A DNA stretch of 55,193 nt from Terramyces sp. JEL0728 (taxonomy: Eukaryota; Chytridiomycota; Chytridiomycetes; Rhizophydiales; Terramycetaceae). The position numbers and the translations under genes are program-made. This document shows, in pieces, positions 191 to 51,939 of the stretch; position 1 is the first letter of the stretch, and each line of letters begins with the position of its first letter. The notes under the pieces were generated by a model, which saw nothing but the letters and a program-made list of their open reading frames with translations, was not told the origin of the DNA and ran no database searches. The stretch spans positions 1-55,193 of the forward strand of contig JADIIU010000086.1 in assembly GCA_027603945.1 (NCBI GenBank), in the 5' to 3' direction.

Positions 191-2817
191 TTAGGAGCGA
201 CTAGAACTGCTGCTCTTTACACCAACCCTTGATCTGGATATATTCGCCAAGAAGAATAAAAGCACTGCATTCAAGATTATACTTGCAATCAAAATAGCCA
301 GGGCATAAGGGGAAATTTCGTAGTTACTGCGCTGATAAGCGGGATTTTGTTTGATTACAACCACCGTCTGAGTTGATATTCCTATATGTGAAGATACAGT
401 TTGATCGGCATTGAAATTTGAAGCAGCCATTAGATTTTCTATTGTATTTGTTTGCAGGGAAATGTCTGACGCTGAGGCGACAGCAATATCTGCTGTAATA
501 AGTGTAGTAGAAGCGGTATGCGTTACTATTTCTATAGTAGTAGCAGCGGACAGTACAGTCGAAGATGTGGATAGAGTAGCAGCAGAATGGCTAGAGTTGA
601 TGGATTTAGGCTCCTTACAGTTCAGATTCACACCTTCTACCTTACACTCTACCCTTCCTTCAATCCAGCCTGATACTGCACCTTTATACAGGACCATATC
701 AGAAATCCCAACCGCATTTTCATAGCTGTAACAATCTCCTTCAAACAGGAACGATACTGGAGTAAACCATGCATACTGGATACAGCTTTCATTTTCCATA
801 CAGTAATTGATGCAATCAATTAACGGCCCTTTAATTGTTGTGTATTTTGTCGCTTTACTGCCCCATAAATAACTCCAAACTTCATACCTCCCATCAACAT
901 AAGTAACCAATTGATCATTTAAAAAGTAATTTTGTTTGACTGGATACAATTGAGATTCGCTTGTTCTTGGTATTGAATTTCCAAGCATATCGAAAAATCC
1001 ACAAAACGATGTTTGTTTGTACGCTATTGAACTCAGACGATCAACATTATAATATTTACAGATGCCATCATTGCTGTAAGATATATGGGGAAAGATTCCT
1101 ACATTAAAAAGCAAATACCTTTGTATTCGTACGAAAATAACAATTTTGAACCTAACCCGGAATAATAGCAATCCTTCAGAGTCATTTGATCAAATGTGTA
1201 AATAGGCTCTGTAAACTCGCATCCAGCACTCCCCGAAACAGGAGCGGTAGGAGGGAAAGGACCGAGCGGATCTGACTTGAATGGATATCGTAAGAATGCG
1301 TCCACTTTAGTTGAAAATTGTGAAAAGTAACTAGCATTTGATTGTCCAACAAACTCTAATTGCTTCCCTATGATTTGATATTCAGAGCAATTATTGCAAT
1401 TCGGAATTTTTAGATAATTGAAATTTGTTGTCAAGATCCAAAGCTCAGATATTGTATCAGATAACATACAAACGGCGCCGCTCCATTGCGCAAGTCCGCA
1501 AGTGTCATTTTGTTTACAGGGATTGATGCAGTCTTCAAACGTGAAACATGGAAAGGTGGTATATGGTTCTGAGGTGTACATATTGCCCAAAGACACATAT
1601 TCTTGAATTTCCTGGGTATCGTTCCCGTCTTTTTCGTATGGAAACAAACGATTTCCGTTATATGTGATAAAATCTCTGGGAGGCTCTTGTTCTATTTGAT
1701 TATCTACAATCCTGGCTTTGTCAAGCAGCACTCCGCATTTAGATTCGGTTCCATCACTATCTGGCCATGTGAAATTAAGGGCATTCCCTAGATAGCAGTA
1801 ATTTGGGTCAGAGTCAAAAGTTGAGAAAGAGAAAGCAAGACAGTCTACATAGGATTCGCACGCGGCTTTACAAACACTTTCTTCCAGTCCAAATTGGTAA
1901 TATAAGATATTACTCCCCAGTTTGCAAGTTTGATTGTAGGCAATGTTTTCACTTTGATTAACTTGAAACGAAAAATAGTCAACCTTTAGCATATTTTCAG
2001 CAGCTTTATCAGTATAACAATGATATTGGTTCCCTAATGTCGAATTCAATGTGCAATTGTTTCTGCTTGGTATCAGAGAACATGATCCAATTCTTGTATC
2101 ATCACTGGTGAAATTTGTCGGTGCAGGATACACGTCGCTGATTTCAACCATATTGTCATACAGCGTGCATGTCATCGCTGTGGTGGAATTGACATACTCG
2201 GTTTGCACGTGTGTGCATGATGGGGTTGAAAGACAGCGACTCTGGCAATCTGATTTACTGGCTGCAGGCACAATTTCGATCTCTGAGGCATCGTCCCAAA
2301 AACAATTGTAATTCCAAAGTAGGGTTGTATTTTCCATAGCTAACCCATTCCACTTTCTTACCAGCTGGTAAGTGCTATCTTTTTCTGCTTCAGGAAAGTT
2401 GCAGGAAACAATTCCATTCAAAGAAACGGCGCAATTGTTTTTAGTCATAACCAAACCGCAATAATTTGCGTTGCTCACATTATTTATCACATCATTTGCG
2501 CCAGATCCTTCATACATTGTGCAGTCGCCGGTTTCTTCGTATATTATTATCCATCCTCTTTGCTCCAACGAGCGCTTCCAACCCCCTGAAGCATGTCCCT
2601 TATCCTGTATCCATTCAAACTTTTTGCAAAATTCATTTTCTCTGCAGAGTTCCATACATTGGAAAAACAACATTTTGGGAAATGTGTAATAATTGCTGCC
2701 CGTAGTCCAGGTGCATCCATCCGTGTAAAGTACATCTGAATCATAAGTGAAAGGTATTGGATTTTCAGCATAGTAAAGCTTGCTTTGGGCCAACACTCCT
2801 GGCAATAGAAAATACAT
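191..2817 (-). CDS. PAN/apple-like Cys-rich type I membrane protein, short-tail paralogue
   Basis: Two exons (2817-1119 and 1098-191) joined by a 20-nt intron, gtatttgctttttaatgtag. Splicing restores SYEYKG-IFPHIS, colinear with the paralogue at 3049-6420. The model gives 868 aa. The ectodomain repeats Cys-rich modules (for example CMELCRENEFCK, CQSRCLSTPSC, CKAACESYVDC, CINYCMENESC) whose CxxxC spacing resembles PAN/apple domains, with many N-glycosylation sequons. A Ser/Thr-rich stalk and one membrane segment (ALAILIASIILNAVLLFFL) follow, then only a stub of basic and Ser-rich cytoplasmic tail. The role is probably surface binding of protein or carbohydrate; the ligand is unknown. The N-terminus is uncertain: the first in-frame ATG gives a short leader (MYFLLPGVLAQ). 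The frame stays open about 60 nt further upstream with a better hydrophobic leader but no ATG, so a further 5' exon may exist. Confidence 0.72.
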
Positions 2818-3048
2818 GAAAAATTTACAGATCCAAAAAAGGAAAAGGACTCTGCACAAATCCAGAGCAAACTTTGGAATTTTACAAAGTGGTCGGATGG
2901 TGCTATCGACAGAAATTTAATTGGAGAGTATTCCACTGGTTCTTACCATAAAGCAATTCCTTGACTGCTCTTGACAGGTGCCGAAACAATTACTTGAAAT
3001 TAGAAATGCGCCATTGTTCATTTACACACGCATTGCAAAGGCAGTTTA

Positions 3049-6000
3049 TTAGAATCGATGATTAAATTCAATGTTTTTCAGCTCTGTTTCCCGGGATATT
3101 TTTGTACAATCGATATATGTCCATGTTTCAACAGTAAGAGCGTGAATATAGTCGTACAGAGAATCATTGTAACACCCACCATATAGTATTACTTTTTCAT
3201 TTCCAGTAATTACATCAAATATATCACTGTGATCACTTGGATCTAACCCTGATGGGCCGATCTCTTTAATTGAAACCAAGTTTGGATATAGATGAATTGC
3301 AGCAAGTAACTTGTCTGAATGCGAAAACCTACCATTTGCATCTATCAGCACCAGTTGAAGTACTGGCAATGATCGTTCAGGAATGAATTCCAGCGGTAGT
3401 CTGCCCTGTTTCTCTCCATTTGATGCAATTGCATAATCAGTTACCTTTAAAATTGAAATCAAGTCGCCTCTGCGTATTTTCAATGATCCTTCCTCGTCCA
3501 AATTATAATTACTGTGAAATTGTAACAGAAACCTATCCACTAGATAATCAAATGCCCCTAAATTCTGTAAAGTAGTAAATAGATAAATTTTGTGATATTG
3601 AGTAGTGTCTTCACTTAGAACAGAAGGGAAATTGTCATTACTATTCTGAAATTGGTAAATTTGAAACTCTGAAGAGCGGTTATCTGGAGAATACGATTCA
3701 GATTCTTGAAAAGTGATTTTTTTGTCATAACTTTGGTGTGGCAATGAAGGATTGAATGCAGGTGCTTGCGAGACTTTGAAATCACTACCTTCTGCAGACA
3801 CAGTTCTTTCAGGGTGTGTTTCCTTTGGTTGGGAAATCTTTGCCAAGAGGACCAACAGTACCACGTTCAAGATTAAGCTAAGGAGCAAGCTACCAATTGT
3901 AAAGTTAGACAGGTTGTATTTTGATGTATATTGCGTACTTGAATTTGTAGGTACGAATGTCGTCACAACTAGAGTTGAAATGTGTGTAGTTAGAACAGCA
4001 GCAGATGTTGTTGCAGCCACCACAGTTATTCGCGGTTCTGTAAACGTGGAACTTTCAAGAGTAGCTTCATCTGTTGTAAGCGGTGTTTGAGATTGGGTAA
4101 TGTGCAGCTGAGGGAGAAGGTTTGTTGCAACCGAGAGTAAAGTTGAAGTGACAAAGGTGGAGGTAGAATCAGCAGCGGAGGTTGAAATATTGGCTATGAT
4201 TTGGTCGCATTCCAAATCTGCCCCATTTATCGTGCATTTTATCCTACCTTCGATCCATCCTGATACGGCACCCTTATAAGGAATCAGATTGTATATTCCA
4301 ACAGCGCTTTCGTAACTATAGCAATCACCAGAAGATCGAAATGAGGGAGGTGAAAAATAGGCATATTGCAAGCAATTGGCGTTTTCGGCACAGTAAGATA
4401 CACAGTCCATAAATGTACCTTTGATTGTAGTGTATTTTGTTGATCTGTCTCTCCACAAATAGCTCCAAATCTCGTATCTTGAATTCACAAAAGTAACCAG
4501 CAAATCGCCCATGAAATAATTTTGTTTGATAGGGAATGGCTCGGATTCGCTTGTTTGTTTAATATCTGGACGGGAATTCGTGCTGATAGCGCAAAACGAG
4601 GTTTCTTTGAATCTAATCGCACTAATCCTATCCAGCTCATAAAACCTACAAACCCCGTCGTTGTTAAAGGAAATGAATGGATATTCCCCTAATATTAATC
4701 AAGGTGCACCTTTGTATTCGTATGATATAGATAATTGGGACTTGAGACCGATTTGATAGCAATCGTTAAGGGAAAAGTGATCAAAAGTAAATATTGGATC
4801 GGCAAATTCACACTGTGCAGAACCATAGACGTGGTGACGCGGATTTCCAAATCCTAATGGGTCTTGTTGAAACGGATATCTCAAGAACTGGTCAATTGTA
4901 GTCGGAAATTGCTGAAAGTATGTCCCATTTGCACTCCCCACAAACTCCAGCTGATTCTCTTCAATTTGGTAGTCAGAGTGGATTTTAATATAGTTCAAAG
5001 ACGCCGAATAGAGCTCCATATAAAATTGCGACTGTTGATCAAGCATATAACAGTTTTGCCCATCCCACTGCGAGATTACACAAGAGCTATTGTCCTTGCA
5101 TATTGAGATACATGCTTGATGCGATGGTAGCTGAAACTTGTCAAGGTAGCCTGTATTTGTACACTGGCATGCACCTATATACTCGGTAACATTTTCATGC
5201 TGTGCAGAATCATTCATATATGGATAGAGCGGGACTCCATTAAAAGTAGTGCCATTCTGCGGTGGCGAGTAGTAAATTTGGTTATTTTCTATCTGCACTC
5301 TATCCAAGAAAACACCACAGATGGTTTGTGTTCCGTCAGAAGATCTTTGAAAATTAATGGCGGTGCTCAACGTGCAATACATATATACGCCATTGAAGTT
5401 GTAGGAGAATGCCACACAGCCAAGATATACTTGACAAGAGTTCTGGCATTCAGTCGGACCTTCATCTTTACCCAACGTATTGGCCAAGACTATACCGCCA
5501 GATATGGTGCAATTATTACTGTAACCAATGCTTTCTGTTGAACTAGTTGTAAATGGGATATCTTCATAGTACATGACATTTGCAGGGGAATCCTGGAGAT
5601 AATCGCAGCGATATTCGTTTCCATAAACGGTGCAGTTGTTCCTACTTGGAATTATGGAGCAGGATCCTATTCTTGGCGAATCTATTGGTGGACTTTGGAC
5701 ATAGTCGAATACTGTGGGATATGAATTTGTAACTTGCACCCGTTCCGAATATAAAGAACAAGTCTTTTCAATGGTTGAATTGATGTATTCTACTTGCGAG
5801 TGAGTACAGGATGCTATCGCAACACAGGAAGTCTGACAATCCGCTGCGTCAATAACAGACTTTCTTTCAATCAAACTCGTATCATTCCAAAAACAGTTGT
5901 TATTCCAGAGTACTGTATAGTTGTTTACAGAATTTCCGCTCCAATTACGAATCAGTTTGTAACTACTATCGCGAATGACAGGAAAATCGCAGAAAACGAT

Positions 6001-6616: not shown

Positions 6617-8337
6617 TTACCAAAACCTGTAATAATCAGAGACACCGCAGATAACAACCAACTCATTTACAAGAGCTTTGAGGTCATTATGGTTAAAGAA
6701 AAAGTCTGGGACACTAGGATTACTATCAGGCAAGTTATTTGTCCCGCAGTTCAAATGCGCCTGCAGAACTATCCGACAAAATATGAATCTGGTAATATAC
6801 TGAGCCAAAAACTCGTCTTGAATAAATGCTTTAAAAGAGAAATCTGCGTTAATAAAAAGTACCAATTTCGTTGCGTTGTAACAGTGATATAGTGTATAGT
6901 TCTATTTCTCTTAGTTTGTCCACTGCGTACTGCCACTGGTTTGGCTTTAATTGCTTGATATTGGACACGAAACAGAATGCTTTTAGCGGGCAATGCAAGA
7001 AAACTGTAAAGATGGAACTTGGGTGATCTTGTTAGTGCTTGATTACCTTTTGTAACTGGCATTTCAGGGGGCGATAATATACACAAGAATGGCCGATCGA
7101 ATGCAGGCTGAAAGTTTTTGAATGACATGCTATTATCCGAGTCTACAATCACAAACATTGGTTTTCTTGTGAACGAAGTCAGGTCATGCGGGAAGAATGT
7201 GTTTATGGTATCATGGTTTGATTTTCCGGATGGTAATGAAGCCATGCTGATACCACTAGGCTGTTTTGCTTGCGATCCTTCCCCAGACAAATACAATAAA
7301 AGTGCAGATTGATCGTTGGTCATATCTTTTTGGCAAGTAGCTAGCTTTAAAGTCAAGAGATCGATGGTTGGCTTGAATAAGAGGTGCTTTTCCGGATTCC
7401 TGTTGATATTAGTTGGCTCGCTGGTTTCAAGTGATCCTGATTGCGATTGTAATTCTGGAATTTGCGAGTCAGTGAATTCAGGGTCATATTCTAGTGACTG
7501 TAATAAACCGTACATATCAAGAGTTAATCCAGAGAATTTCGCCTACCGTCAGAAATGAGAGTACATGGTTTTCATAGTTGCCCACAACAACAATCTGCTC
7601 CAACTTGATTTGTGGATTAAGAGGTGTTTTGTAAGAGTAACGCAAATGAGAAGTAATTGGCAGTAACTGTCCTTCATAGTAAACATCATACAGCTGCTGA
7701 GCAGAAATGAAACTGCTGATTTCATTGTACAATAATCGCCATTCGATCGCATCCTTTTCTTCCAAAAAGAATTCGTACTTTTTGATGTAATCCTGGAACT
7801 CCAAAGAGAGCTGGTGCACTAGTTGATATTTGTTCAACAGCAAACAGATAACAATGTACCGAATATGATACCGCAATTTTTTAATAATCAACGCACTTGA
7901 CTTTGCTTCCAATACCTTTTCAAAATATTTACGTTTTTGAATTGCAGAGTAAAACGTAAAACTTTCTTGCAGGTATGAAGTATCCGACGTTCTGAGGTAG
8001 TAATAGTAATACAACTGTCCGATTTTTGAAGCTAGCTCTCCCAATTCCCATCGCTTCATTCCATAGTACTGTTCATTCTCCAATACTTTGCGGTGCACCT
8101 GCTGAAATTTCCATAAGCGAGAGTAGACTTCAAAAGTGGATTGGAATAATGGTTTCCAGTTCTTTCCTGTATTTGTTGGTTCTCTGAGAGTGATAAACAA
8201 GCGGTGAGATTTTTCTAAAAGGTATTTAAATTCTGGGTAAAAATCCAATTACCTTGAACAATCTTTTCTGGAGTGTTACCCGCAGGATACATTTCAAACG
8301 TTTCTAAGCGAATAGGGCCAGACACTGTATCGTCCAT
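6617..8337 (-). CDS. SCAI: SCAI-family protein, copy 1
   Basis: Five exons: 8337-8253, 8232-7565, 7542-7047, 7027-6863 and 6843-6617. Introns of 20, 22, 19 and 19 nt include gtaattggatttttacccag, gtaatcaagcactaacaag and gtactttttattaacgcag. The product is 546 aa. Family hallmarks in order are EFKYLLEKSHRLF, FEVYSRLWKFQQ.HR, KRWELGELASKIGQLYYYYYLRTS, KKLRYHIRYIVICLLLNK, LTLDMYGLLQSLE, HLLFKPT, FTRKPMFVIVDSDNS, FLCILSPP and ITRFIFC. Animal SCAI binds MRTF/SRF and has a 53BP1-linked repair role; which of these applies in a fungus is unknown. The start (MDDTVSGP) is shared with copy 2 at 20272-22188, supporting the choice. It has four introns, all at positions also used in copy 2, which has four more. 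No AATAAA is seen close to its stop. Confidence 0.9.
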
Positions 8338-17442: not shown

Positions 17443-20255
17443 ATGGTCAAAGTCTACCAAAGATACAAACTGCAAAAATCATTTGGAGTAATCGCAAGTT
17501 CATCTTCAAACGCAATATTTAATCATGACGGGACATCCTGCTATGCGCCAACGCTGGAAAATATCACCATGTGGAATTTAAAACAAGGAACTGTTATAAA
17601 GCAGCTGCAGGATTCTAATTCACAGACTACGTGTATTGCAAGGCATAAGGAACTAGTGGCGGTTGGGTATTCTGCGTTTAATTTAGATTTGCTGATGGGT
17701 CGATTCGTATTTGGGATAACGGTGTAGTCACAGTGTTCAATGGACATCGAGCGCCGGTTACTTGCCTGGCATTTGATAGCAAGGGTGCAAGATTGGTTTC
17801 TGGTTCTGCCGACACTGATGTTATTTTGTGGGACGTTGTTGCTGAAATTGGGCTGAATAGATTCAAAGGGCACAAAGACCAGGTTACCTGTGTCGCTTTT
17901 ATTGAAGGTGAGAATTAATTAACAAGAACAAAGTCCTAATTCTACGACTAGATTGAACCATATTGTTTCTGGATCAAAAGATACACTTGTCAAAGTTTGG
18001 GATATCACTGCAGAATGCTGTGTTGAAAATATCGTGTCGCACAGAGGGGAAGTGTGGGCTTTAGATATCAGAGGCACAATGCTTCTCACTGGTGCTGGTG
18101 ACGGACAGTTGAGGTTGTGGGAAATCAATCTCGAAAACCTTGCAAACAAACTAATTGATAATGCTCAGCAAGACGCAGCAGAAATTGCGAAATCAATTGA
18201 ATTAATTGGCAATATTGAAAAGCAAAGCAAGGAAAGAGTAATGTCAATCAAATTTCATTCAGATGAATTTTTTGGAGTCCAAGGAAATGATAAATTAATA
18301 GAAATCTTCAAAATTAGAAATGATCAAGAATTAAAGAAACGACTGGCCAGGAAAAAGAAGCGATCCAAGGATGATATGGAGATTGAGCTCGAATTATCCG
18401 ACAAGATTTCTATATTCAATACAATCAAGACATTTTCAAAACTGCGGTCTTTTGACATGGTAAAAGGAGCACACAAAAACCAACTTCGAGTATTGGCGCA
18501 TCATACCAGCAACTCTTTGGAATTCTATCAATTGTCTTTGGACGAAAAAGAGCCAGCAAAACAAATTTCTTCAATTGATTTGCCTGGCCATAGAACTGAT
18601 ATCAGAACACTTTGCTTATCTGAAGATGATGAATTACTAGCATCTGGAAGCAGTGATATGGTAAAGCTTTGGTCGACCAAAAATGGGAACTGTGTCCAGA
18701 CATTGGAGTCGGGATATGCTCTCTGCAGTGCATTCGTCCCTGGGGGCAAGCATTTGATTGTTGGCACAAAGCAAGGAGAATTACTGTTGTACGAGTTATC
18801 CTCTTCGTCATTGCTTGAAACCATTCAAGGTATTTTGATTTAATGTAGCTCACGAAGGGCCAATCTGGGGAATTCAGATTCTGCCTGATAAGCAAGGGAT
18901 GGTAACTGCCAGTCAGGATAAGACTGTAAAGTTTTTCAAATTTGGATTGATTGAGGATGAAAACTATTCGAAAATTGCAAAAAGAGCTACTGCTGTACAT
19001 TTTAGAACACTCAAATTAACTGATGATGTGTTGAGTGTTCGAGTATCTCCAGATGGCAAATTACTTGCGGTAGCGCTACTAGATTTGACTGTCAAAATCT
19101 TTTACGTTGATACTCTAAAATTCTTTTTATCATTATATGGACACAAGCTGCCAGTTAATTCAATGGACATTTCCAGCGATTCCCGTATTATTATTACTGC
19201 ATCGTCGGACAAGACTGTTAAAATCTGGGGGCTTGACTTTGGCGACTGCCATAAAAGTCTTTTGGCTCACCAGGATAGTGTAATGCAATGCCAGTTTGTG
19301 TGGGGAACCTATTACTTTTTTACCGCATCCAAGGATAAAACAATCAAGTATTGGGATGCAGAAAAGGTATTCGTGGTTTAATTTCAGTTTGAAGAAATTA
19401 GTAAACTTGAAGGCCATTTTGGAGATGTTTGGGCACTAGCAGTTGGCAAATATGGAAACTTTGTTGCCTCTGCATCGCACGACAAATCCATCAGGATCTG
19501 GGAAAAGACTGACGATCAATTTGTACTGGAAGAAGAAAGAGAGGCACGTCTCGAAGAAATATACAACGACCTGGATATCCAAGAAGAAAAGTATACTCAA
19601 GACATTGGATCTGGTGTTGAGGGGTACGAGGAAAAGGAAGGCAAACAGGTCGAGCCAGCGACTAAATCCACAATGGAAAGTTTGAAAGCTGGCGAACTGC
19701 TTTCCGAAGCACTCATTATCTGGCAAAAAGAAAATGAAGATTTTGAAAAATACCAAATGGTAAAACGTGCTAATGTAGATGGTAAAATCGAACCCAGATG
19801 TTGCTAAACCTGCCAGACATCCAATTGTTATCTCTACCGGCCTGCAAGAAAAATCGCCAGAAGAATACATTTTGCACGTTGTAAATGCCATCAGACCATC
19901 ACATTTGAACGATGCATTACTAACACTCCCTTTCCATCAAGTAATAACACTGCTCGAATGTGTCGCTAAATTAATTGAAAAGCAACTAGACCCGCTCCAA
20001 ACACAAAAAATTCTAATCTTTTTATTAAAAGAACACCATAATGAAATAACTAGCACGAGATCACTGAAGCCAGTTATCGAAAAAATCCAAACACTTTCGC
20101 GCAAGCAATTAAAGAAAGAACGCGATGTGATTGGGTACAATGTTTACGCGCTTGGCATTCTGTTACGAGAAAAGAAGCAAGGAAAGGAAAGTTTCTTTGG
20201 AGAGCAAGTAGTTGAAGAGCGTGGCGAGAAGCGCAAGAGAATCGCCGTTAAATAA
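17443..20255 (+). CDS. WDR3: WDR3/Utp12 (Dip2) SSU processome WD40 protein
   Basis: Six exons: 17443-17666, 17687-17907, 17927-18829, 18849-19366, 19388-19759 and 19779-20255. Introns are 20, 19, 19, 21 and 19 nt (for example gtattctgcgtttaatttag, gtattttgatttaatgtag, gtaaaacgtgctaatgtag). The product is 904 aa, near the usual length. The N-terminus MVKVYQRYKLQKSFGVIAS matches Dip2. Tandem WD40 propellers follow (GHRAPVTCLAFDS, SGSADTDVILWD, SGSKDTLVKVWD, GHKLPVNSMDIS, SASHDKSIRIWE), then the C-terminal Utp12 domain (ILHVVNAIRPSHLNDALLTLPF) and a basic tail. It acts in nucleolar U3 snoRNP/90S pre-ribosome processing of 18S rRNA. The second intron is 19 nt, leaving the in-frame exon start EEQSPNSTTRLNHIVSGS. 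The stop overlaps AATAAA. Confidence 0.95.
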
Positions 20256-20276: not shown

Positions 20277-22188
20277 GACTTTCAAATTGATATAAACTTG
20301 ATACCCCTGTAATTTGTACCAAATCATTAACAAGACTGATTAATTCTGGGTTGCTTATCAAACCGGATGGAAGAGGCGGGTTACTTACAGGATGGTGCTA
20401 TGGTTATTCGAAATCTACCTTGGATTCTTTGAAAGCTTGGTGGGCATTCAACAAAGCAGAGCATAAAACAAATCTTACGATAAACTGTCTGAGGAAATCA
20501 TCGGTAATAAATCGTCTATAAGACTTTTCTACGTTAGTAAAAAGTACCCAAGTTTTGGTCTTGGCCAATCAAGTCTGAAATAAATTGCTCGATTTGCTCA
20601 ATCTTTGTGATGCTAGTTTCCCATACTTCTTTTTGGATCTGAGTCAAATCACTGATAAAGGCGAATGCTTTTACCGGACAGTGCAGGAACAAGGAGAACA
20701 AGCTTCCGATTTGAGTAGTGTCTACGTTAGGTATAATCACCTTTGATTGTGGTTGGATATTCCACCGGGGACATCAAGCAAACAAACGGTTGACTAAACA
20801 CTTTGGTAAAATCCCTGAAAGCCGTGCTATTATTTGAATCGACAATCAAAAACATTGGTTTACGAGTAAATGGAATTAAGTCTTGGGGGTGGAATGTGTG
20901 GATTAAAGCATTTTGATCAGCATCAATCTTTTCAGGAGCTTTCCTGGTGTAATTTACTGCAGTGGCAATTCCGCCAACATATTCTTGATTAAACCCAAAT
21001 TACCGTTTGGAGAACCATCTTTTACTTGTCTCTTTGATCCATCAGCACTGATGTAAATCATTAAACAGTTATTTTCCGTGATATCCTTGAAACAAGTCGC
21101 TACATAAAGTGCAAGTTGAGCAAACGTTGGGCGGTAAAGCAAGTGTTTACGCGGATTTGATCTTTTCGATTTAGTATCCTCTTCTGGCTCTTTATCAAAT
21201 GAAGTCATTCCAACACCAGAAGTTGTTTGGTCAATTGGTGGTGCCTGCTGAGGAACTGGTTTGGTAAATCCTCCTGATAATGAAGGTTCGCGTTCGAGAG
21301 ATTGAAGCATACGATACATGTCCAACGTCAATTCAGAAAATTTAATCTACATTAATATCAGTTACTTGGTTTTGATAGTTTCCTACCAGAATAGCTTCCT
21401 GCAATTTTAAACGTGGGGTATTATCGAGTTTTGCAAATTCATACTTTAATCTTCCTATGCAAGTTAAAGGGTTTCCTTCCATGTCAACTGGTGCAAGTTT
21501 CTTTTCAGCTTCCAAAAAGGTTGAGATTTCTGATAGCACAACATTCCACTCTGCGTAATCACTTGGTTTAAATTGAGCGTTATAATCTTCTACATACTGC
21601 GCAAGCTGTTCCATTAATTTTTTTATCATTGCGCTTTTGTTTAAGAGCAAGCAAACGACAATGAATCTGGCGAAATAGCGCAGTTTTTTGACCATTAACG
21701 CAGGACTAGGTTAGTGCAGGATATACTTTTTGGTTTCAAGCACGTCCTTGAAATAGTTGCGGTCTCTTATAGCTTCGTAAAAAACGTAACTTTCATTCAG
21801 ATAATTAGTTTCACTAGTGCGGAGATAATAATGATAATAAAGCTGTCCAATTTTAGAGGCAAGTTCACCAATTTCCCATCTTTTCAAATCATAGTATTCC
21901 TTGTTTTCCAAAATTTGTCTTGCGATTAATTAAACAAACCTATTGTGCTGTTGAAACTTCCATAGCCTAGTATACACTTCAAAAGTGCGTTGGAAATGTG
22001 GTTGCCAGTTTCTTCCAGTGGGAGATAATTCTCTCAGTCCTACAAATAGTTGGTGACTCTTTTCACTCAGATAGCGGAATTCTATATTACGCTGTAGCTG
22101 TACCTTCGACAATCTTTTGTGGAGTGTTTGCTTGGTGTCCAGTGTCTGGCTGTTCATTTCTAGCTGGTCCTGAAACGGTGTCGTCCAT
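20272..22188 (-). CDS. SCAI: SCAI-family protein, copy 2
   Basis: Nine exons: 22188-22104, 22081-21940, 21918-21727, 21705-21366, 21346-21004, 20983-20741, 20721-20548, 20528-20419 and 20397-20272. The eight introns are 19-22 nt, for example gtaactgatattaatgtag, gtaatttgggtttaatcaag, gtgattatacctaacgtag and gtactttttactaacgtag. The spliced product is 584 aa and begins MDDTVSGP like copy 1. It carries the SCAI blocks EFRYLSEKSHQLFVGLREL, FEVYTRLWKFQQHNRQILENKE, KRWEIGELASKIGQLYYHYYLRTSE, KKLRYFARFIVVCLLLNK, LTLDMYRMLQSLERE, HLLYRPTFAQL, FTRKPMFLIVDSNNS and a C-terminal VNDLVQITGVSSLYQFE. It is closer to animal SCAI than copy 1. Likely nuclear regulator or repair cofactor by homology. The stop is inside CAATAAAC. 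Confidence 0.92.
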
Positions 22189-22962
22189 CTTTCAAGATTG
22201 TTTTTGCGTGGTAAAGGATTTCCTTTTTCATTTTCCATTGACCAAAGGATAGAAATTTCTTAATAAGAAGGGAAAGGAGCCAAGCTGAGGGCTCGTAACG
22301 TATTCCAAGCACAACAAACGGGTTTAGTTTATATGCCGAGACTCTCTTGCCATATGTACCTTACTGGATAGCGCGGCACAGCCAGATATATATCTAGCAA
22401 ACATGCGATGGTTAATGCGAAGCCAATTATGAATGGGCTAATATCCAGAGCTATTTTGTTGATCATTCTCGATAAATTGATTCCAGAAGCCGCGATACGC
22501 ATGGCACTAAATGTACAGACGATACAAGGAAACTGTCATTGATGAACGCCAAGTGTCTTGTGTCGTACGCAGTCGCGCATACCAAGCTTTATCTGCAGCC
22601 AGTAAACTGCACTATTATACTCAACAATGATTGCGCAATTCTAGTAATAAGCAAAATATTTGTTCTGGCTCGACGAAACTATCTGACACGACACAAAATC
22701 GCAACCAATAGTTTGAATAATCCGATATTGTGATGAATGCAAATTCAATGTTGGTTCATTTAAAACAATTCCGGGTTGGGATAATTGTTGGTTGGATTAC
22801 AAGTATGCATTCAGAACTTGTTTTTAAATGAATCAGAGTTCTTTTGCCAATTTCCAACCAAACTACTGGTAAACTTGACCGCATAATCTGTTATCGACAG
22901 GCAGACTTTGTTGATTATGATACGTCATTCAATAGAACAGTTTTGGACGAAATAGTTTGAAA
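22189..22962. other. intergenic region, divergent promoter of SCAI copy 2 and a 7TM gene
   Basis: About 770 bp without a supportable gene. Short open frames (for example 22539-22733) show no family features and no partner exons. Confidence 0.55.
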
Positions 22963-23800
22963 ATGCTCACTCGATCATACTTTGTTTTGTTCTCTGGAGG
23001 TTTCTCTTTGTGTATGATTTTGAAGCAGCTTGGTCTAGTGATTTCAGTGCCTAGCCAAAGACGTTTTGGATATTTGCTACTCACTTGGTCTGGATACATT
23101 CTGATTCAATTGGTGAATACATGGAGCACGTTACAAGCACGGCCTCTGCCAGGAATCACTTGGGCTGTCTCTACTTCTACTTTGTTTTACAGTGCCTGTG
23201 TGACGTGGTTGTTGTATATCTCGATGCAGAGGTACCTGCAATTAATCTAGATATTTGGCGATTAACCACGAAACCAAATTTGCCGTGTACGTAAGATGGG
23301 CTACCATTGGTCTAATGGTTGTCGTATTTACGATCCGATTTGCCCGTACAGTTTTGGTGTATATCCAAAATTCTGGCTCGGCAGTTTTCCCAGTTGCAGC
23401 TACTCTGCAAGTAATTACGATTTTCCCGACTTTTATTATCCGCATGCTATTTGACATTGCCTCGCTTGTAAAGCTGTCCCAACATTTCAACAGTATTACT
23501 CATCAATCTGCCAACAAACTCGTTGCGTTTTATCAATTAGGCTACTTGTTGGTAATTGAGGTTGTATTGACTTTGTTTTCGATTGTCGTTGCAGTCCTTG
23601 AATCTCAGAATTACGCTGGTGATGATGTCGCTAACATGGATTGGATTATGATTTCGTGGGCGATTGGCGCTTTACTCGAGCAATCGCAAATCTTGACTCG
23701 GCTATTCAACGAATCAGAGCTGAAAACCAGTGCAAAGGCCAATACTGCGACAAAAAAGACTATTGAGAGGACTGGGAATGCCAGTGCCGCAGATCTTTAA
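22963..23800 (+). CDS. 7TM receptor-like protein
   Basis: Two exons, 22963-23231 and 23251-23800, joined across the 19-nt intron gtacctgcaattaatctag to restore MQRYLAINHETKFAVYVRW. The product is 272 aa with about seven membrane helices. QRYLAI after the third helix resembles the DRY region of rhodopsin-like receptors, which is suggestive only. The C-terminal tail is Thr/Ala-rich and basic. The ATG at 22963 is preferred over an upstream TTG. The stop is followed at once by a second TAA inside TAATAAAT. It converges on the MLKL-like/Sel1 gene with 18 bp between stops. Confidence 0.82.
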
Positions 23801-25569: not shown

Positions 25570-26826
25570 ATGTTCAAGGTTCTCAAGACTACTGCAAGAT
25601 TCTCCAAAAATGTACGATATCAATCAGGAATTGGATTCAGCCTCACCGCCGACCAAAAAGATTTGCAAGAAGTAGCTCGCAAATTCACTCAAGAATACAT
25701 TACCCCAAATGCTGCACATCATGACAGAACTGGGGAATATCCAGTTGAAATTCTAAAGAAAGCGTGGGAAGCTGGATTATTGAACGGACATGTTCCTGAA
25801 AAATATGGTGGTCTTGGATTGGGAGTCTTGGACTGCTCCATCATTGGTGAAGAACTAGCTTATGGCTGCACTGGTATCCAAACCGCAGCAGAAGCTAATG
25901 GATTAGCTGAAGCTCCAGTTATCCTTGCCGGTAACGATCAACAAAAGAAAAAGTATTTAGGAAGAATGACTGAAGAGCCATTAATGTGTGCTTACTGTGT
26001 CACTGAACCAGGTGCTGGATCTGATGTAGCTGGAGCAAAAACTAAAGCTGTAAAGAAAGGTGACAAATATATCATTAATGGAAACAAAATGTGGATCACT
26101 AATGGAGGAAAAGCAAACTGGTACTTTGTCTTGGCAAAGACCGATGACACTCAGAGCGCCGGAAGAGCATTCACTGGCTTCATTGTTGATGCAAACAGCC
26201 CAGGTATTACCGTTGGAAAGAAGGAAATCAACATGGGACAAAGATGTTCAGACACTAGAGGTATCTCTTTTGAAAATGTTGAAGTTCCGGTTGAAAACGT
26301 TTTGGGTAAGGAAGGACACGGTTTCAAAATCGCCATGGTACATTCTATTAATTTCAGGGAGCCTTCGATATTACTCGTCCATTAGTGGCTTCTGCTGCTA
26401 CTGGTTTAGCTAGACGTGCTCTTGAAGAAGCAACCAAATACTCTTTGGAAAGAAAAACCATGGGCAAAGTCATTTCAGAACATCAAGCTATTGCATTCAT
26501 GTTGGCAGATATGGCAATTGGTGTCGAGGCAGCTAGATTACTCGTCTGGAAAGCAGCTGCGATCAGAGATGGCGGAGAAAGCAACACATACTATGCATCA
26601 ATGGCAAAGGCATTTGCTAGTGAAATTGCCAACAAAAACGCTGCAGATGCAGTCCAAATCTTTGGTGGAAACGGATTCAACTCTGAATATCCGGTTGAAA
26701 AGTTAATGAGAGGTATTCGTAGCTAATGTAGATGCAAAGATTTTCATGATTTACGAAGGAACCTCACAAATCCAAAGAATGATTATTTCACGTCTATTAT
26801 TGGACAAGACCAAGGCTGGTTTGTAA
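25570..26826 (+). CDS. ACADM: medium-chain acyl-CoA dehydrogenase, mitochondrial
   Basis: Three exons: 25570-26337, 26358-26712 and 26732-26826. The introns are gtacattctattaatttcag (20 nt) and gtattcgtagctaatgtag (19 nt). The product is 405 aa with a basic presequence ([20 protein letters not shown]). ACADM blocks are [59 protein letters not shown] (restored by splicing), [23 protein letters not shown] and the catalytic Glu in [13 protein letters not shown]. It catalyses FAD-dependent alpha,beta-dehydrogenation of medium-chain acyl-CoA in matrix beta-oxidation, passing electrons to ETF. It is complete, and the stop is in TAATAAA. Confidence 0.96.
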
Positions 26827-37125: not shown

Positions 37126-38015
37126 ATGTCCATCTCACCATTCTTTGCTACTGGAAATCTATATTCTCAGCTAAAAGCCCAAAATTTCAGTGTTTCCTCT
37201 GACACTTTTACTCTAACTGATGGATCTACTACTTTTGCAAAAGTCCAAGATACTGATGTGTTTAAAGATTTGATTATTTTGGCAACTTTAAATACTTTAT
37301 CTTTTCCGTATTTCAGTCTGACAAAATCAAGTGGGCAACTACCAATTCAGCTTCTTTCTTGGATACAGTCCTTGTTACTGGTGATTGCCAGCTATCTACT
37401 GATGTTATTTCGTTGCAATACTATTGGCCAGTTACCAATCAAACTGATCTTGCTGTCTTTAACAATGTCACTCTGAACACAACTCAGACTGACACCCAGG
37501 TCAACGATTTATTGCTAAAGCTGGGAAACGAAAATCTGTACAATTCCACAATAGAAATCTATCATGCGGTTGGTATTAATGGGTTATTCACTGGCACTTT
37601 CGGATCTCAAAATACTCTCTCCTACTTTAATGGATCGTACACACTCTCAAACGTAGCTATTAACGGATCAATACTAAATTACATGTGGTATGATTTGAAT
37701 CCATTTGTAAACAACGTATTTACTGGCATCAAACAATTCTCAGTATCCCAAGACTCCAATTACAACCATTTGAAAATATCAGCTGCTAAATCTGCAATCA
37801 ACATCAAATTCAGCGACCACTTCAAAACTCAAAATATGAGTGTTTCCATTACTTCCAGCGGGGCAGTATCTTTTCAAGGTGTGAGCGGGTTTATTCTCAG
37901 CACATATTATGTATCTACAGGCTCTACCAACTGGCGATTGATTTTCGGAGTAGCTATTGCAGTACTAGCCGTGGCAGTTGTCGTAGCTTTGATTTTGTAC
38001 AGAAAAAAAGCTTGA
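37126..38015 (+). CDS. single-pass membrane protein with glycosylated ectodomain
   Basis: Two exons, 37126-37330 and 37351-38015, joined over the 20-nt intron gtgggcaactaccaattcag to read LTKSTSFLDTVLVTGD. The product is 289 aa. The ectodomain has many N-x-S/T sequons (NQTD, NVTLNTT, NSTI, NGSY, NGSI). A single C-terminal membrane helix (IFGVAIAVLAVAVVVALILY) is followed by RKKA. No signal peptide is visible at the ATG, so either the N-terminus is internal, an upstream exon is missing, or insertion is C-terminal. No family recognised. AATAAA lies about 15 nt after the TGA stop. Confidence 0.7.
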
Positions 38016-39095: not shown

Positions 39096-42000
39096 TTAGA
39101 CTTTGTAGGCGGCAAATGCAGCAAGACACTTGTCACGAGCTGCCGCATCTTTAAACCGAATAGTAATGCCAACTTGCTTTTGGTTTTGGTGTCCAATAGT
39201 TTCGCCCTTTCGCTCCTCTTGAATCACGCTGTAGATCATGAACTTGCCTTGATCTCTTTCAGTTTCAGGCTCATCAATCTTTTCAGCATTCTTGATATAA
39301 AAAGTAGTCATTATTGCCTGGTCTTTTCTAAATTTTCTGATGAATGCCAATTTTGAACCTGGGAAAATGTAAACTGATGCGATTTCCCAAGTCGATAAAC
39401 CCTTACCAGACATTTTTACATAGACGTTCATTAGCTGGATGCCGTCGATTGTCAATACTACTTGGTCAGATGCAGTTGCGTTTTCATTTTCTGCGACAAA
39501 CACGTTGGTATTGTCTTTCTTGGTGGCAACAACAGATTCGGTTTGACTTTCAAAAGCAGATGCAGCAACCTTTGATACTTTAGAGCCTGCAGACCCTTTT
39601 GTCTTTGAACTACCGCTTTTCGAGCCACTTTCGTGGTTTTCAACCAATTGTCTGTACACCAACTTGCCAATTGTCATTGTTGAAATGTAAATCGTGAAAA
39701 CATTCAGCAACAATCCTTGCACAAAATCTACCGCAAATTTGTCATCAATGAACGCTTCAAGTAACAATAATAGTACAAATAACCCCATTGCTTGGTAGAT
39801 TGATTTCAAAGTCCCGTCGAAATCAATAAATGCCGGGGCTGTATCTTTGAGTGAATAGCACAAGTATAGAGAAACTAGAGCAATCAAGATTAGATACACC
39901 GACAAGACTGACTCAAAGATGGAGTCGTAGCGACTGCCACCACTAGAGAAGCACCCAATATAATGAGATCCAGAGTTCATTTGCACTAGAAGGGCCGTGG
40001 GAGGAGCAACTTGGGACCAAACAATAAAGACTATTGCTGGCAAAAGCAAAGCTACAAAAACAATCAAATTCAAGATATACTGAGGAGTGACTTTGCCAAT
40101 TTGGAAACTGTTGACGAAAAAGATTTCATACAGTCTATAATGCTTGACCAGCCCAACAGAAATCACAAGCGTCAATGCTTCGACCAACAAGACTGGCTTG
40201 ACCATACAAATAATACTATTGGCAACCAGCGGAAGAAAGGCTGTGTAAATATGCAACAAAATGTATCCAAGAAGAATCAAGCTGGTTAGTATTACATCAG
40301 ACGACCGAATAATTTTGCCTTTCCTGTACAGTAATATGGCTGCCAAAACGATAAATTGAAATACGATGCCAATAACAACAGTTGCAGATATCCCAACACC
40401 ATATGGATTTGAGAGCGAAGTGCAGGTAGAATTCATGCTTGGTGTAAGTGAAATTGTCCCAGATGGACAAGTAGTACACAAATTTGTAGTTGGATTCAAG
40501 TACTGGGTAGGCGGACAATAAACATCGATTACAACATCTGTACTTTGCGATACGTCAAGTCCATTTGACACTGAATATGCAAACCTGTTTGCCCCATACC
40601 CAGCTTGTGGAACCAAAGGCTGGAAAACAACGGTCGTAGATTGATATCCTCTCGAAAAAGCGATTTGCGATCCATTCACAAGTTCGTTGCCATTGACATC
40701 GTACAAATTACCAGAAACAGAGTTGAACAAAGTCAAATCCAAGACTGCATACAGACTGGCATCGTAGGTATTAGTCGCACCGTATAAAGCAATTGTAATA
40801 TTTGGGTTTGTGGAAAATGTGATTGCAGTTTGGTTTGTGTGGTAGCCACCAATTGGAGCGGAAGAAACAAGGATCTGCGGGTTGGAAGTTTTCAGGACTG
40901 ATTGCTGGCCAGGAACTACGTAACAAGGGACATCAGGGTACTTGTAGGCTACACAGTCTTTTCCTGCAGCAGTTAGACAGAACGGTGGAGCGTTAGGTAC
41001 ACACGCGCTGAACTGAATATCATCCTGGAACGGCCCTAAATCAGGAGTAACGACAATGGTATCGTTGCCTTCACCTTTCACAGTGTATATAGTATCAAAG
41101 TTGTAATATGTTGCCAAGTGGGGTTCCTGGCTAACATCATTTATCGCACGATTCATACTGTTTCTAATTTGCGATTGGCTGATTGACGTATTGTAGATTC
41201 TAAATTCATCCATGAAGCCTTTGAAAGCATGCATGCCTTCACCCCAGAATGCCCAGTGACATAGCCATAGCCCGTTGATTTCGTTAAAGTTGGATTCATA
41301 GCCGCCAAATGCAGGCACGGAAACCACAAGATCGCCATCAATATACAGTTTTAAGGTATCCAAATCATCCACCATTGCAATATGGTACCACACACCGTAC
41401 TTGGCAAAAGCATCAATAGTAAAACTGCCATTGTTAGACAACTGATCCCAATTGGAGTAGCCAATTAACTGGATTAACCAAATATTACCGTTGATGCCTT
41501 GCCGTTTGGAACCCATATCGAATACCTCCCATTGCAAAAATGGCTATTTGCATAGTTGAGGTTGGAGTTTAGTCCGCGACACCAAGAGTTTTCAAACGAT
41601 ACTTCTTGGTTGCCAAGGGAATAGATTACTCCTTCAACGCTGTTTGATAGATGGTAGATCCAAGCTGATACAGTGTATGGGCCAGTAATGCCGACTTTGG
41701 CAGCATTCCATTTAGGCGCAAACAGGTAGTCATAGTTTCCGTCACAGTAAAGCATATTGCCTGCAGGTCCGGGTGAGGTTTTTGGAACGACTACAGCTTC
41801 AATTTGGAAAGAGCCAGATGTAACTCCAACCAGCCCTTGAACACTAAACGCTCCTTGGAAATAATCCTTCTTTGCAGCACCAGTGGCAGTAGTTTCAACA
41901 GAGAGCGGCAAGCATAACGGAACAGTAGACCCTACAATTACTTGTGTATTTCCGTTCCAGAGAGTGACGCCAGTAACTGCTTGGTCCAACGTCAAAATAG

Positions 42001-43027: not shown

Positions 43028-43034
43028 TTAGTAA

Positions 43035-43415: not shown

Positions 43416-44509
43416 TCAATTGACAGGTGGTTCAGAAGTACGCTGATAGGCTCTTAATTTAGCACTCCTACTCCTCCTATTATTTTCAATCTCTTCCTGG
43501 CTTGGCACAACTAAATCAAACAAATATTACCAACACGTTTAGTCAGTTTGACAAAACTACCCATGCTGTTCATTGTGGGCTCTCTATCATACTCTCCAAG
43601 ATCTTTGAGTCGATTCACCTGCCGTCTTACCCTATAATACCCTTTGCTTTTGCTGTAATCGTCTTGAACTATAGGTTGCTTATTAATACAGTTCAAAAAG
43701 AAACGTTTGACCAAGCGGTCTTCCAACTGATGAAAGGTGACTATGGTAACGATACCGCCAGGTTTGAGGATTCTTTCAGCAGCAAGTAGAGACTTTTGCA
43801 GTTGATAAAGCTCATCATTAATGTAAATCCGCAGGGCTTGGAATGCTTTTGTAGCTGGGTGACTACCTTTCCAATAATGTCCTTTTACATCCATTATCAA
43901 GTCAGCTAGCTCTGTAGTCGATTCAATCATCTTTGTTTCTCTGTATTTTGTTATTCTTGAAGCTATTTTCTTGCCAAGTCTTTCTTCGCCGTATTTGATG
44001 AATATTTCTGATAGTTGCTCGTGCGAGTAGTTGTTTATAATTGCTTCTGCCGTGATACTTGTATCCAGCGAGCTGTTTGGTGCGAGACTGACCTGGTTTA
44101 CCATCGAGTCAGGCGGCAATTTAGTATCTTGAGGGTAATTGTGCATCCGCATATCCAGCGGGCCAGTTCTCCAATGTGAAAACCCACGAATAGGATCATC
44201 CAGCTGATTGGAAGAAACTCCTATATCGTACAATACACCATCGACCTTTCCCTTGACAATCTTTTCCAAATCGCCGAAATGCCCATGCACTGGTATCAGC
44301 CTATCCTTGTATTTCTGTTTTAACTGAATCATTCGGGTAACTGCTAGCGGGTCCTTGTCAATTGCAATTACTTTGCAGTCGAAATTTTCCAGGAGTGCTG
44401 CTGTGTATCCGCCTTGGCCGAATGTACAATCCACGAATACTTGGCTACTCGCTTTGTTTAGAAAAGAAAGGGATTCTTTCAGCAATACTGGAATATGCTT
44501 GATGTTCAT
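43416..44509 (-). CDS. METTL15: mitochondrial 12S/small-subunit rRNA N4-cytosine methyltransferase (METTL15/RsmH), copy 1
   Basis: Two exons, 44509-43531 and 43510-43416, with the 20-nt intron gtaatatttgtttgatttag. Splicing adds the conserved C-terminus PSQEEIENNRRSRSAKLRAY. The product is 357 aa. Family blocks are IPVLLKESLSFL, FVDCTFGQGGYTAALL (SAM motif), VIAIDKDPLAV, DGVLYDIGVSSNQLDDPIRGFS, GPLDMRM, SHPATKAFQALRIYINDEL, ERILKPGGIVTIVTFHQLEDRLVKRFF. It methylates N4 of the cytosine equivalent to C1402 in the decoding site; in eukaryotes it acts in mitochondria. Only a weak presequence is visible. It is one of few genes here with a TGA stop and no nearby AATAAA. Confidence 0.94.
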
Positions 44510-44611: not shown

Positions 44612-45039
44612 TTAGGCTTTTTTGATATTGGCATGAACCTGCATTAAAAATTCTTACTTGAGGCTTGCAATCCCCAATGGTTTTCAATAGCAAATCAATA
44701 ACTTTTTGCTTGTTGGCTTCGAAATCCTTGTTAATCTGTGCAATCTGTTTTTGGGTCTCTACTTCTGCCTGTTTAACATTCTCACCAACATCACCAGCAA
44801 ACTAGTAAAAAAACAATTACTTTCTTTTCGTATTCGATAAATTCTTGGTTTTTAAGCTTCTTTAAATCTTCAATTTCCTTTTGAGCCTCTTGTCTTGCAT
44901 CTTTTAATCTTTGAACACGATCTGGGTTAGTAATGGTTACCTATTGTTAATGTCACCAACATGATTTTGCTTTTGCTACTATTTTTGAAGCTTCTTTTTC
45001 TGCTTCCAAGAGGGTTTGGATTCCTTGATTTGATGCCAT
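44612..45039 (-). CDS. VMA10: V-ATPase V1 subunit G, copy 1
   Basis: Four exons: 45039-44961, 44921-44821, 44801-44658 and 44638-44612. Introns are 39 nt (44922-44960, composite), 19 nt (gtaattgtttttttactag) and 19 nt (gtaagaatttttaatgcag). The product is 116 aa: ASNQGIQTLLEAEKEASKIV, AKAKSYRVQRLKDARQEAQK, EIEDLKKLKNQEFIEYEKK, then a Lys/Gln-rich coiled coil and DCKPQVHANIKKA at the C-terminus. These match subunit G, the peripheral stalk with subunit E in vacuolar proton pumping. It is too fragmented to appear as a single open frame, so frame restoration is the evidence. The stop is in TAATAAA. In this copy only about 30 bp of native 5' flank remain before the duplication junction. Confidence 0.92.
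44922..44960 (-). other. 39-nt composite intron: 20-nt and 19-nt introns abutting with no exon (VMA10 copy 1)
   Basis: On the coding strand gttggtgacattaacaatag (44960-44941) is followed directly by gtaaccattactaacccag (44940-44922). Each half has GT and AG ends and an A-rich branch motif (TTAAC, CTAAC) at the usual position. Only removal of all 39 nt restores KAKSYRVQRLKDAR; removing either half alone breaks the frame or leaves a stop. Confidence 0.85.
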
Positions 45040-49919: not shown

Positions 49920-49926
49920 TTAGTAA

Positions 49927-49969
49927 ACGCGTTACTAATCTTGAGGTACATGCATTTTGGGTCACGCGT
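49927..49969. promoter_or_regulatory. pair of ACGCGT (MCB-like) boxes upstream of LamG-GPCR copy 2
   Basis: ACGCGT at 49927-49932 and 49964-49969, matching the pair in unit 1, although 2 bp between them have been deleted. Confidence 0.35.
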
Positions 49970-50305: not shown

Positions 50306-51399
50306 TCAATTGACAGGTGGTTCAGAAGTACGCTGATAGGCTCTTAATTTAGCACTCCTACTCCTCCTATTATTTTCAATCTCTTCCTGGCTTGGCACAA
50401 CTAAATCAAACAAATATTACCAACACGTTTAGTCAGTTTGACAAAACTACCCATGCTGTTCATTGTGGGCTCTCTATCATACTCTCCAAGATCTTTGAGT
50501 CGATTCACCTGCCGTCTTACCCTATAATACCCTTTGCTTTTGCTGTAATCATCTTGAACTATAGGTTGCTTATTAATACAGTTCAAAAAGAAACGTTTGA
50601 CCAAGCGGTCTTCTAATTGATGAAAGGTGACTATGGTAACGATACCACCAGGTTTGAGGATTCTTTCAGCAGCAAGTAGAGACTTTTGCAGTTGATAAAG
50701 TTCATCATTAATGTAAATCCGCAGGGCTTGGAATGCTTTTGTAGCTGGGTGACTACCTTTCCAATAATGTCCTTTTACATCCATTATCAAGTCAGCTAAC
50801 TCTGTAGTCGATTCAATCATCTTTGTTTCTCTGTATTTTGTTATTCTTGAAGCTATTTTCTTGCCAAGTCTTTCTTCGCCGTATTTGATGAATATTTCTG
50901 ATAGTTGATCGTGCGAGTAGTTGTTTATAATTGCTTCTGCCGTGATATTTGTATCCAGCGAGCTGTTTGGTGCGAGACTGACCTGGTTTACCATCGAGTC
51001 AGGCGGCAATTTAGTATCTTGAGGGTAATTGTGCATCCGCATATCCAGCGGGCCAGTTCTCCAATGTGAAAACCCACGAATAGGATCATCCAGCTGATTG
51101 GAAGAAACTCCTATATCGTACAATACACCATCGACTTTTCCCTTGACAATCTTTTCCAAATCGCCGAAATGCCCATGCACTGGTATCAGCCTATCCTTGT
51201 ATTTCTGTTTTAATTGAATCATTCGGGCAACTGCTAGCGGGTCCTTGTCAATTGCAATTACTTTGCAGTCGAAATTTTCCAGGAGTGCTGCTGTGTATCC
51301 GCCTTGGCCGAATGTACAATCCACGAATACTTGGCTACTCGCTTTGTTTAGAAAAGAAAGGGATTCTTTCAGCAATACTGGAATATGCTTGATGTTCAT
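50306..51399 (-). CDS. METTL15: mitochondrial small-subunit rRNA N4-cytosine methyltransferase, copy 2
   Basis: Exons 51399-50421 and 50400-50306, intron identical to copy 1. The product is 357 aa. It differs from copy 1 at LAVTRM to LAVARM, LDTSIT to LDTNIT and YSHEQL to YSHDQL, all outside the SAM and catalytic motifs. Both copies appear intact, giving two genes for a normally single-copy mitochondrial enzyme. Confidence 0.93.
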
Positions 51400-51511
51400 T
51401 TTTTTTTCAAATAAACTTGACCAATATAATCGGCCTGTAGATGCCAGATTCTAATTAAAGACACTCAGTATTCGGATCCAACTCTAAAACCAATAGTAAA
51501 GGATATTTTTA

Positions 51512-51939
51512 TTAGGCTTTTTTGATATTGGCATGAACCTGCATTAAAAATTCTTACTTGAGGCTTGCAATCCCCAATGGTTTTCAATAGCAAATCAATA
51601 ACTTTTTGCTTGTTGGCTTCGAAATCCTTGTTAATCTGTGCAATCTGTTTTTGGGTCTCTACTTCTGCCTGTTTAACATTCTCACCAACATCACCAGCAA
51701 ACTAGTAAAAAAACAATTACTTTCTTTTCGTATTCGATAAATTCTTGGTTTTTAAGCTTCTTTAAATCTTCAATTTCCTTTTGAGCCTCTTGTCTTGCAT
51801 CTTTTAATCTTTGAACACGATCTGGGTTAGTAATGGTTACCTATTGTTAATGTCACCAACATGATTTTGCTTTTGCTACTATTTTTGAAGCTTCTTTTTC
51901 TGCTTCCAAGAGGGTTTGGATTCCTTGATTTGATGCCAT
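51512..51939 (-). CDS. VMA10: V-ATPase V1 subunit G, copy 2
   Basis: Exons 51939-51861, 51821-51721, 51701-51558 and 51538-51512. Coding and intron sequences are unchanged from copy 1, including the 39-nt composite intron at 51822-51860. This copy keeps the native upstream DNA with a 31-bp repeat pair and is likely the ancestral promoter context. Confidence 0.92.
51822..51860 (-). other. 39-nt composite intron (VMA10 copy 2)
   Basis: Same abutting 20-nt and 19-nt intron units as in copy 1, unchanged in sequence. Because the copies are recent this is not independent evidence of constraint. Confidence 0.85.

Follow-up and report, generated by a model that had tools for sequence, protein, structure and literature searches.

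Sequence evidence for a uniform class of 18–23-nucleotide introns in the chytrid fungus Terramyces sp. JEL0728

The window, that is the whole stretch of DNA analysed here (55,193 nucleotides (nt), contig JADIIU010000086.1 of assembly GCA_027603945.1), comes from the chytrid Terramyces sp. JEL0728 and contains, among others, a WDR3/Utp12 gene, two SCAI genes, an acyl-CoA dehydrogenase (ACAD) gene and two copies of VMA10, all interrupted by predicted introns of about 20 nt. The assembly comprises 15,016,339 bases (15.0 Mb) in 231 contigs. The WDR3 protein, once spliced by our model, had its closest relative in HDV01_007475 of Terramyces sp. JEL0728 (99 percent identity), followed by two Boothiomyces proteins (89 and 87 percent) and then Globomyces (60 percent); Terramyces and Boothiomyces are placed in the Terramycetaceae, Rhizophydiales, Chytridiomycota (NCBI taxonomy). 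An earlier reading of the letters of the window (the original prediction) had described a free-living, fungus-like genome. The source is indeed a true fungus, and the free-living part of that description is carried over from other Terramyces only: these were obtained from soil and water with pollen bait and are maintained as cultures (PMC11210171), and the Michigan collection includes the genus (PMC7537106). The accessible portions of these two papers do not mention strain JEL0728 by name; by analogy with its relatives it is probably free-living and culturable.

In the window we identified 26 distinct introns and one doubtful call: 13 of 19 nt, eight of 20 nt, four of 21 nt and one of 22 nt (Table 1). 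Including a tandem duplicate they fill 32 places, 30 of them from the second gene-finding pass (31 calls minus the doubtful one), while the remaining two are the first unit of the VMA10 composite in its two copies, which we placed manually after reading the sequence. A third pass gave 27 calls, including the doubtful one, and omitted the four introns so marked in Table 1. The original prediction had counted 31 units (13, 9, 6, 2 and 1 of 19, 20, 21, 22 and 23 nt); the length class stands, but the two sets could not be matched one by one for want of a coordinate list. Homology backs 19 of the 26 introns (WDR3, five; SCAI gene 2, six; SCAI gene 1, three of four; ACAD, two; VMA10, three), support in the last three genes being a Pfam match across the junction only, with the VMA10 positions read by hand.

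Junctions in WDR3 and SCAI gene 2 were compared residue by residue with homologues. The spliced WDR3 protein aligned end to end with the solved Utp12 (E 2e-222) and all five junctions agreed, as they did with the chytrid orthologues; in SCAI gene 2 all six agreed with seven database proteins, the Terramyces entry included, mis-annotated models being set aside in both cases. The SCAI gene 2 protein matches PF12070 over residues 57-563. In SCAI gene 1 the same family, over residues 33-501, covers three of four junctions, PF00441 (residues 249-397) covers both ACAD junctions, and PF03179 was restored over residues 3-106 of VMA10 once a 39-nt composite intron was removed. Outside the window, the gene for the splicing factor U2AF65 has introns of 20, 20, 19 and 19 nt. 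A search of the unspliced gene detected fragments scoring 251.7 and 27.9 bits; after splicing there was a single match of 334 bits, which exceeds the curated family cut-off of 310.3 (the unspliced and spliced searches differ in kind). Three of its four junctions can be tested against homologues and all three agree; intron 1 falls in the N-terminal part, which is not conserved.

The deposited Terramyces WDR3 and SCAI proteins agree with seven of these 11 introns, as judged from the proteins and not from coordinates. The deposited WDR3 drops 12 exon residues at intron 1, and the deposited SCAI drops seven residues at intron 3, has a differing N-terminus at intron 1 and reads through intron 6 to a stop. 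Deposited gene models of Terramycetaceae can therefore err at exon ends, as at four of 11 introns in these two genes. One Boothiomyces WDR3 model lacks residues at introns 2 and 3 and the other at introns 1 and 4. Gaps at the positions of Terramyces introns point to introns there, of presumably similar length, that the gene caller could not fit, and this damage suggests that the class of about 20 nt probably spans the family Terramycetaceae. As a weaker hint, a Globomyces sp. SCAI model stops where the Terramyces model enters intron 6. The Boothiomyces U2AF65 model lacks a segment too, though not one at a Terramyces intron. That deposited model (P0121) also has an L24-like ribosomal protein fused in front, and the two genes are neighbours in Terramyces (place L033).

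For a gene-independent measure of length, we counted the motif GTA...[TC]TAA[TC]N...AG on both strands and took the expectation from Markov shuffles. In the window, where lengths of 14-60 nt were scored, the motif occurred 15 times at 19 nt (2.25 expected) and six times at 20 nt (2.0 expected), with no excess at 21 or 22 nt; counts were also above expectation at 14 nt (6 versus 1.6) and 55 nt (7 versus 2.3). In a genome sample of 200 kb, drawn from 20 places on 13 contigs (L009-L028), counts at 18, 19, 20, 21, 22 and 23 nt were 15, 59, 85, 38, 26 and 12, a total of 235 against 41.8 expected, while at 14-17 nt the count was 27 against 27.8. The uniform class of about 20 nt that had been proposed from the window was thus confirmed and extended to 200 kb of the genome.

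A Viterbi gene finder with no length preference across introns of 15-100 nt was then applied to the window and the same 20 places (255 kb of 15.0 Mb); six further places (L033, L034, L039, L040, L042 and L043) were run separately and are not counted. Predicted genes with less than 300 bases of coding sequence were dropped in the length-neutral, decoy and 12-300 nt runs (less than 240 in the second and refined passes), as were gene models overlapping a better-scoring one by more than 60 bases. In the length-neutral pass 161 of 198 introns were 18-23 nt long; retraining the coding model made this 166 of 205. GT-AG ends were imposed in calling, yet none of four decoy end pairs yielded a length class, calls within 18-23 nt numbering 7 of 100 (GT-AC), 5 of 130 (CT-AG), 11 of 111 (TG-GA) and 8 of 102 (GA-TG). 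When GT-AG was kept and a wrong branch motif rewarded, 91 of 152 calls still fell within 18-23 nt; the class is therefore recovered by frame restoration between GT and AG. With 12-300 nt allowed and strong motifs only, 100 of 140 calls were in the class. Nearly all introns detected thus lie within a few nucleotides of one another, below 25 nt. An intron whose length is a multiple of three and that lacks an in-frame stop is invisible to the finder, so that 18- and 21-nt introns are undercounted; all 49 called introns of such lengths contain in-frame stops, but the test is circular because the finder cannot call stop-free ones. The second pass was trained on the 18-23 nt class, and its length histogram was therefore not used as evidence of length.

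The anatomy of the class was described with the refined (third) pass, which admits only 16-24 nt, prefers the class and is no test of length. It predicted 154 genes, 98 of them with introns, and a total of 280 introns, of which 277 are distinct: one of 18 nt, 73 of 19 nt, 131 of 20 nt, 47 of 21 nt, 24 of 22 nt and four of 23 nt. Scaled to the genome, a rough estimate from gene models is about 16,500 introns; coding sequence makes up 75 percent of the DNA and carries 1.47 introns per kb. A donor with consensus GTAATT, preceded by a weak AAG and with G at +5 in 51 of 277, is followed by a T-rich spacer (42 percent T between donor and branch in an earlier set of 267 introns), YTAAY, usually two or three bases, and then AG, mostly as TAG. 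The called branch is YTAAY in 170 of 277 introns and YTNAN in 87 more, this motif having been rewarded during calling. The branch A lies at intron position 14-15 in 245 of 277; for 4558 uncalled GT..AG stretches of 19-22 nt, handled in the same way, the figure is 30 percent. In 236 introns of the earlier set the distance from the branch A to the last base is 5-6 nt. The distance from 5' site to branch is thus nearly fixed, and the geometry originally proposed (YTAAY, about 10-15 nt from the 5' site) was borne out in tighter form. In such an intron the 5' site would be defined by U1 and U6 and the branch by SF1-U2AF and U2, across the intron, with the distance between them acting as a ruler of about 14 nt; the lariat loop would be 14-15 nt and the tail 5-6 nt, the nearest AG past the branch would serve as the 3' site, and a polypyrimidine tract downstream of the branch would have little or no space.

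Several components of the corresponding machinery were found. The U2 small nuclear RNA scored 140.2 bits and has an intact branch-recognition stretch (GUAGUA), SF1 has its SF1-HH and KH domains, U2AF65 has its RRMs, and Isy1 was recovered in pieces. Tryptophan motifs can be read in U2AF65 and SF1, which we take to bind U2AF35 and U2AF65. With SF1, U2AF65 and a usual U2 present, the loss or alteration of SF1 or U2AF envisaged by the original prediction is not supported; SF3b and U2AF35 were not among the factors searched for. The lengths, the signals, the restoration of frame and homology and the presence of U2, U2AF65, SF1 and Isy1 are all read from sequence, and on these grounds the introns are very probably ordinary U2-type spliceosomal introns that have been shrunk to and held at 18-23 nt throughout the genome of a probably free-living chytrid.

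Several observations weigh against this interpretation. The refined lengths derive from a model trained on the 18-23 nt class, and the search for the branch was confined to 3-9 nt from the intron end. U1 was not found by Rfam, a search in which the controls also gave none and which is thus uninformative, and U6 was not found genome-wide by covariance model, two patterns or BLAST of the consensus, searches that had no positive control. Two weak covariance matches to U6 fell below the gathering score, and the pattern candidates, one each on contigs C59 and C65, were rejected as having a context unlike U6 and no Rfam match. Without positive controls these searches do not establish an absence; an intron number this high should require U6, however, and the missing gene calls for an explanation, such as a gap in the assembly, an altered gene or introns inside U6. 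Finally, the 200-kb sample shows a motif excess at 24-80 nt (483 versus 373, or 8.5 versus 6.5 per length), thinly spread, which is compatible with some longer introns.

This excess would suit a broad intron range of which the class is the short part only, as would the 36 calls above 23 nt made by the length-neutral pass. We regard such a range as improbable. In the 12-300 nt run 40 calls fell outside the class, similar to three decoys (36, 91 and 33), so that, for the range and signals tested, out-of-class calls occur at about the decoy rate, and at 21 of the 36 longer calls the refined pass has an overlapping intron of 18-23 nt, as if exon sequence had been swallowed together with a short intron. 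The motif excess may itself consist of chance partners of real donors or branches, which would yield such counts. A search up to 300 nt for a broad length distribution, the result that had been named in advance as refuting, showed none, and no longer class stood out; rare longer introns beyond the 18-23 nt class are nevertheless possible. That the introns are assembly indels or pseudogene lesions is scarcely credible: frame breaks are typical of error-rich assemblies too, but lesions do not account for 280 places that share a narrow length, GT-AG ends and an aligned branch motif, for the failure of the decoys or for the agreement of 11 residue-by-residue junctions with homologues, and the length and motif statistics speak strongly against them. 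DNA-level excision or ribosomal bypass in place of splicing, in favour of which we found no positive point, is just as hard to reconcile with GT-AG ends, YTAAY and the matching U2, SF1, U2AF65 and Isy1.

Some of the ultra-short introns adjoin one another. In both VMA10 copies a 20-nt and a 19-nt intron abut, a pair that the gene finders did not join (the second unit alone was called). A second abutting pair (20+20, L015), removal of which restores the reading frame, was called unaided by the refined pass, as was a third (21+23, L016), whose second unit scores poorly. A scan for well-scoring pairs returned three places, both VMA10 copies among them, and five shuffled control rounds yielded no such pair. 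At the 5' end of Isy1 (L043, 1694-1758, minus strand) introns of 20, 20 and 21 nt lie within 65 nt, separated by exons of 1 and 3 nt. The spliced product reads MAPKTLAQKQEDKLANILKKYDG, which we take to resemble the Isy1 N-terminus, whereas excising the 65 nt as a single piece gives a stop (checked by hand). The 3-nt exon could equally be skipped inside one 44-nt intron, and the 1-nt exon could instead be 4 nt, with a much poorer acceptor. The pairs, and the second and third Isy1 introns, may be single longer introns. Alternatively, longer stretches may be removed as chains of units of about 20 nt, two or three in succession. From these arrays (VMA10, 20+19; L015, 20+20; L016, 21+23; Isy1, 20/1/20/3/21) we tentatively propose, while holding it somewhat less probable than its denial, that the spliceosome of this chytrid family might be restricted to a unit of fixed size, about 20 nt (ruler of 14 nt, tail of 5-6 nt), longer stretches being unit arrays with exons of 0, 1 or 3 nt, so that the upper size limit too would be set by the machine.

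The features of the window are collected in Table 1. Positions 38178-51968 are a tandem duplication: the two copies, each about 6.9 kb long and 98.8 percent identical to one another, carry LamG/7TM, METTL15-like and VMA10 genes, with the introns preserved in both. A cluster of Sel1-repeat-like proteins (a name taken from the original prediction) at 27123-36763 received no intron calls in the second pass. The window also contains an RNase MRP RNA (9090-9308, minus strand, 51 bits) and four similar small membrane proteins in tandem (9734-11841), presumably akin to MAPEG enzymes.

Table 1. Genes and predicted introns of the window (lengths in nt in brackets; passes are those of the gene finder).
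Feature	Position	Strand	Introns	Remarks
WDR3/Utp12 gene	17443..20255	+	17667-17686 (20), 17908-17926 (19), 18830-18848 (19), 19367-19387 (21), 19760-19778 (19)	
SCAI gene 2	20404..22238	-	21919-21939 (21), 21706-21726 (21), 21347-21365 (19), 20984-21003 (20), 20722-20740 (19), 20529-20547 (19)	
SCAI gene 1	6617..8337	-	8233-8252 (20), 7543-7564 (22), 7028-7046 (19), 6844-6862 (19)	6844-6862 omitted in third pass
ACAD gene	25570..26826	+	26338-26357 (20), 26713-26731 (19)	
VMA10 composite	44922..44960	-	44941-44960 (20), 44922-44940 (19)	abutting, zero exon between; read from sequence
VMA10 intron	44802..44820	-	44802-44820 (19)	second and third pass; PF03179 match
VMA10 intron	44639..44657	-	44639-44657 (19)	second pass only (omitted in third); just past Pfam match
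VMA10 duplicate composite	51822..51860	-	51841-51860 (20), 51822-51840 (19)	
VMA10 duplicate introns	51539..51720	-	51702-51720 (19), 51539-51557 (19)	51539-51557 omitted in third pass
METTL15-like intron	43511..43530, duplicate 50401-50420	-	(20)	both passes; beyond best Pfam stretch
LamG/7TM intron	41469..41488, duplicate 48361-48380	-	(20)	one base differs in duplicate; frame restoration only
PAN-like gene intron	1099..1118	-	(20)	frame restoration only; gene name from original prediction
PAN-like gene 2 intron	4689..4709	-	(21)	frame restoration only; gene name from original prediction
7TM-like gene intron	23232..23250	+	(19)	second pass only (omitted in third); protein without Pfam match
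Doubtful intron	37331..37350	+	(20)	both passes; without YTAAY motif; probably false call

Comparable introns have been described in several other systems, as far as the accessible text of the papers cited here goes. Reported lengths are 16-17 nt in mikrocytids, 18-21 nt in the chlorarachniophyte nucleomorph and 15-16 nt in heterotrich ciliates (PMC10245619); the original prediction had named ciliates and the Bigelowiella nucleomorph for comparison and omitted the mikrocytids. Stentor coeruleus, with introns of 15-16 nt, shares with Terramyces a conserved GUA (its most common intron begins GUAAUUUUU), a nearly fixed branch position, a 5-nt tail and the retention of U2AF (U2AF2 and U2AF1 in Stentor; U2AF65 found in Terramyces), whereas its loop is 10-11 nt with no strong branch consensus, compared with 14-15 nt and a strong YTAAY in Terramyces, a fungus with introns of 18-23 nt and not a ciliate; SR proteins were undetected in Stentor, according to the part of that report available to us (PMC9505925). 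The chlorarachniophyte nucleomorph has the same length band and narrowness (PMC10245619, PMC2222250), but is a relic endosymbiont nucleus with more than 800 introns in about 300 genes, not a 15 Mb fungal nuclear genome. Mikrocytos mackini likewise has narrow, extremely short introns with conserved motifs (PMC10245619); unlike Terramyces, with an estimated 16,500 introns and the few tested factors present, it is an obligate parasite whose spliceosome is highly reduced and whose introns are predicted to number 224. Introns of Dicyema, a parasitic animal, are similarly short and uniform though longer (mean 26.2 nt, n = 16; PMC2222250). Fungal stwintrons also place more than one intron within one intervening stretch, but there an internal intron interrupts an external splice signal (PMC6616335), whereas in Terramyces whole units abut or lie 1-3 nt apart, and in VMA10 and L015 neither of the abutting units interrupts the other.

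A 23-nt intron has been called comparable only with those of Stentor and Bigelowiella (PMC12316389), and in a survey of 644 fungal genomes the introns of Cryptococcus, with a mean of 63 bp, were called relatively short (PMC8476143). Among the matches listed by our literature search, which left most subscription papers outside, none described such introns in a fungus. The Terramyces introns thus rank with the shortest known, and within the limits of our search a uniform class of this kind has apparently not been described in fungi before; since such introns are already implicit in the proteins deposited for Terramyces, the depositors may be aware of them. Ciliates, relic nuclei and parasites had so far supplied the known cases of uniform tiny introns. 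In a fungus that carries about 1.5 of them per kb of coding sequence, has U2, U2AF65, SF1 and Isy1 and has culturable relatives, the minimum and maximum intron size that a spliceosome accepts could be put to a direct test, and this in the kingdom of the best-studied spliceosomes.

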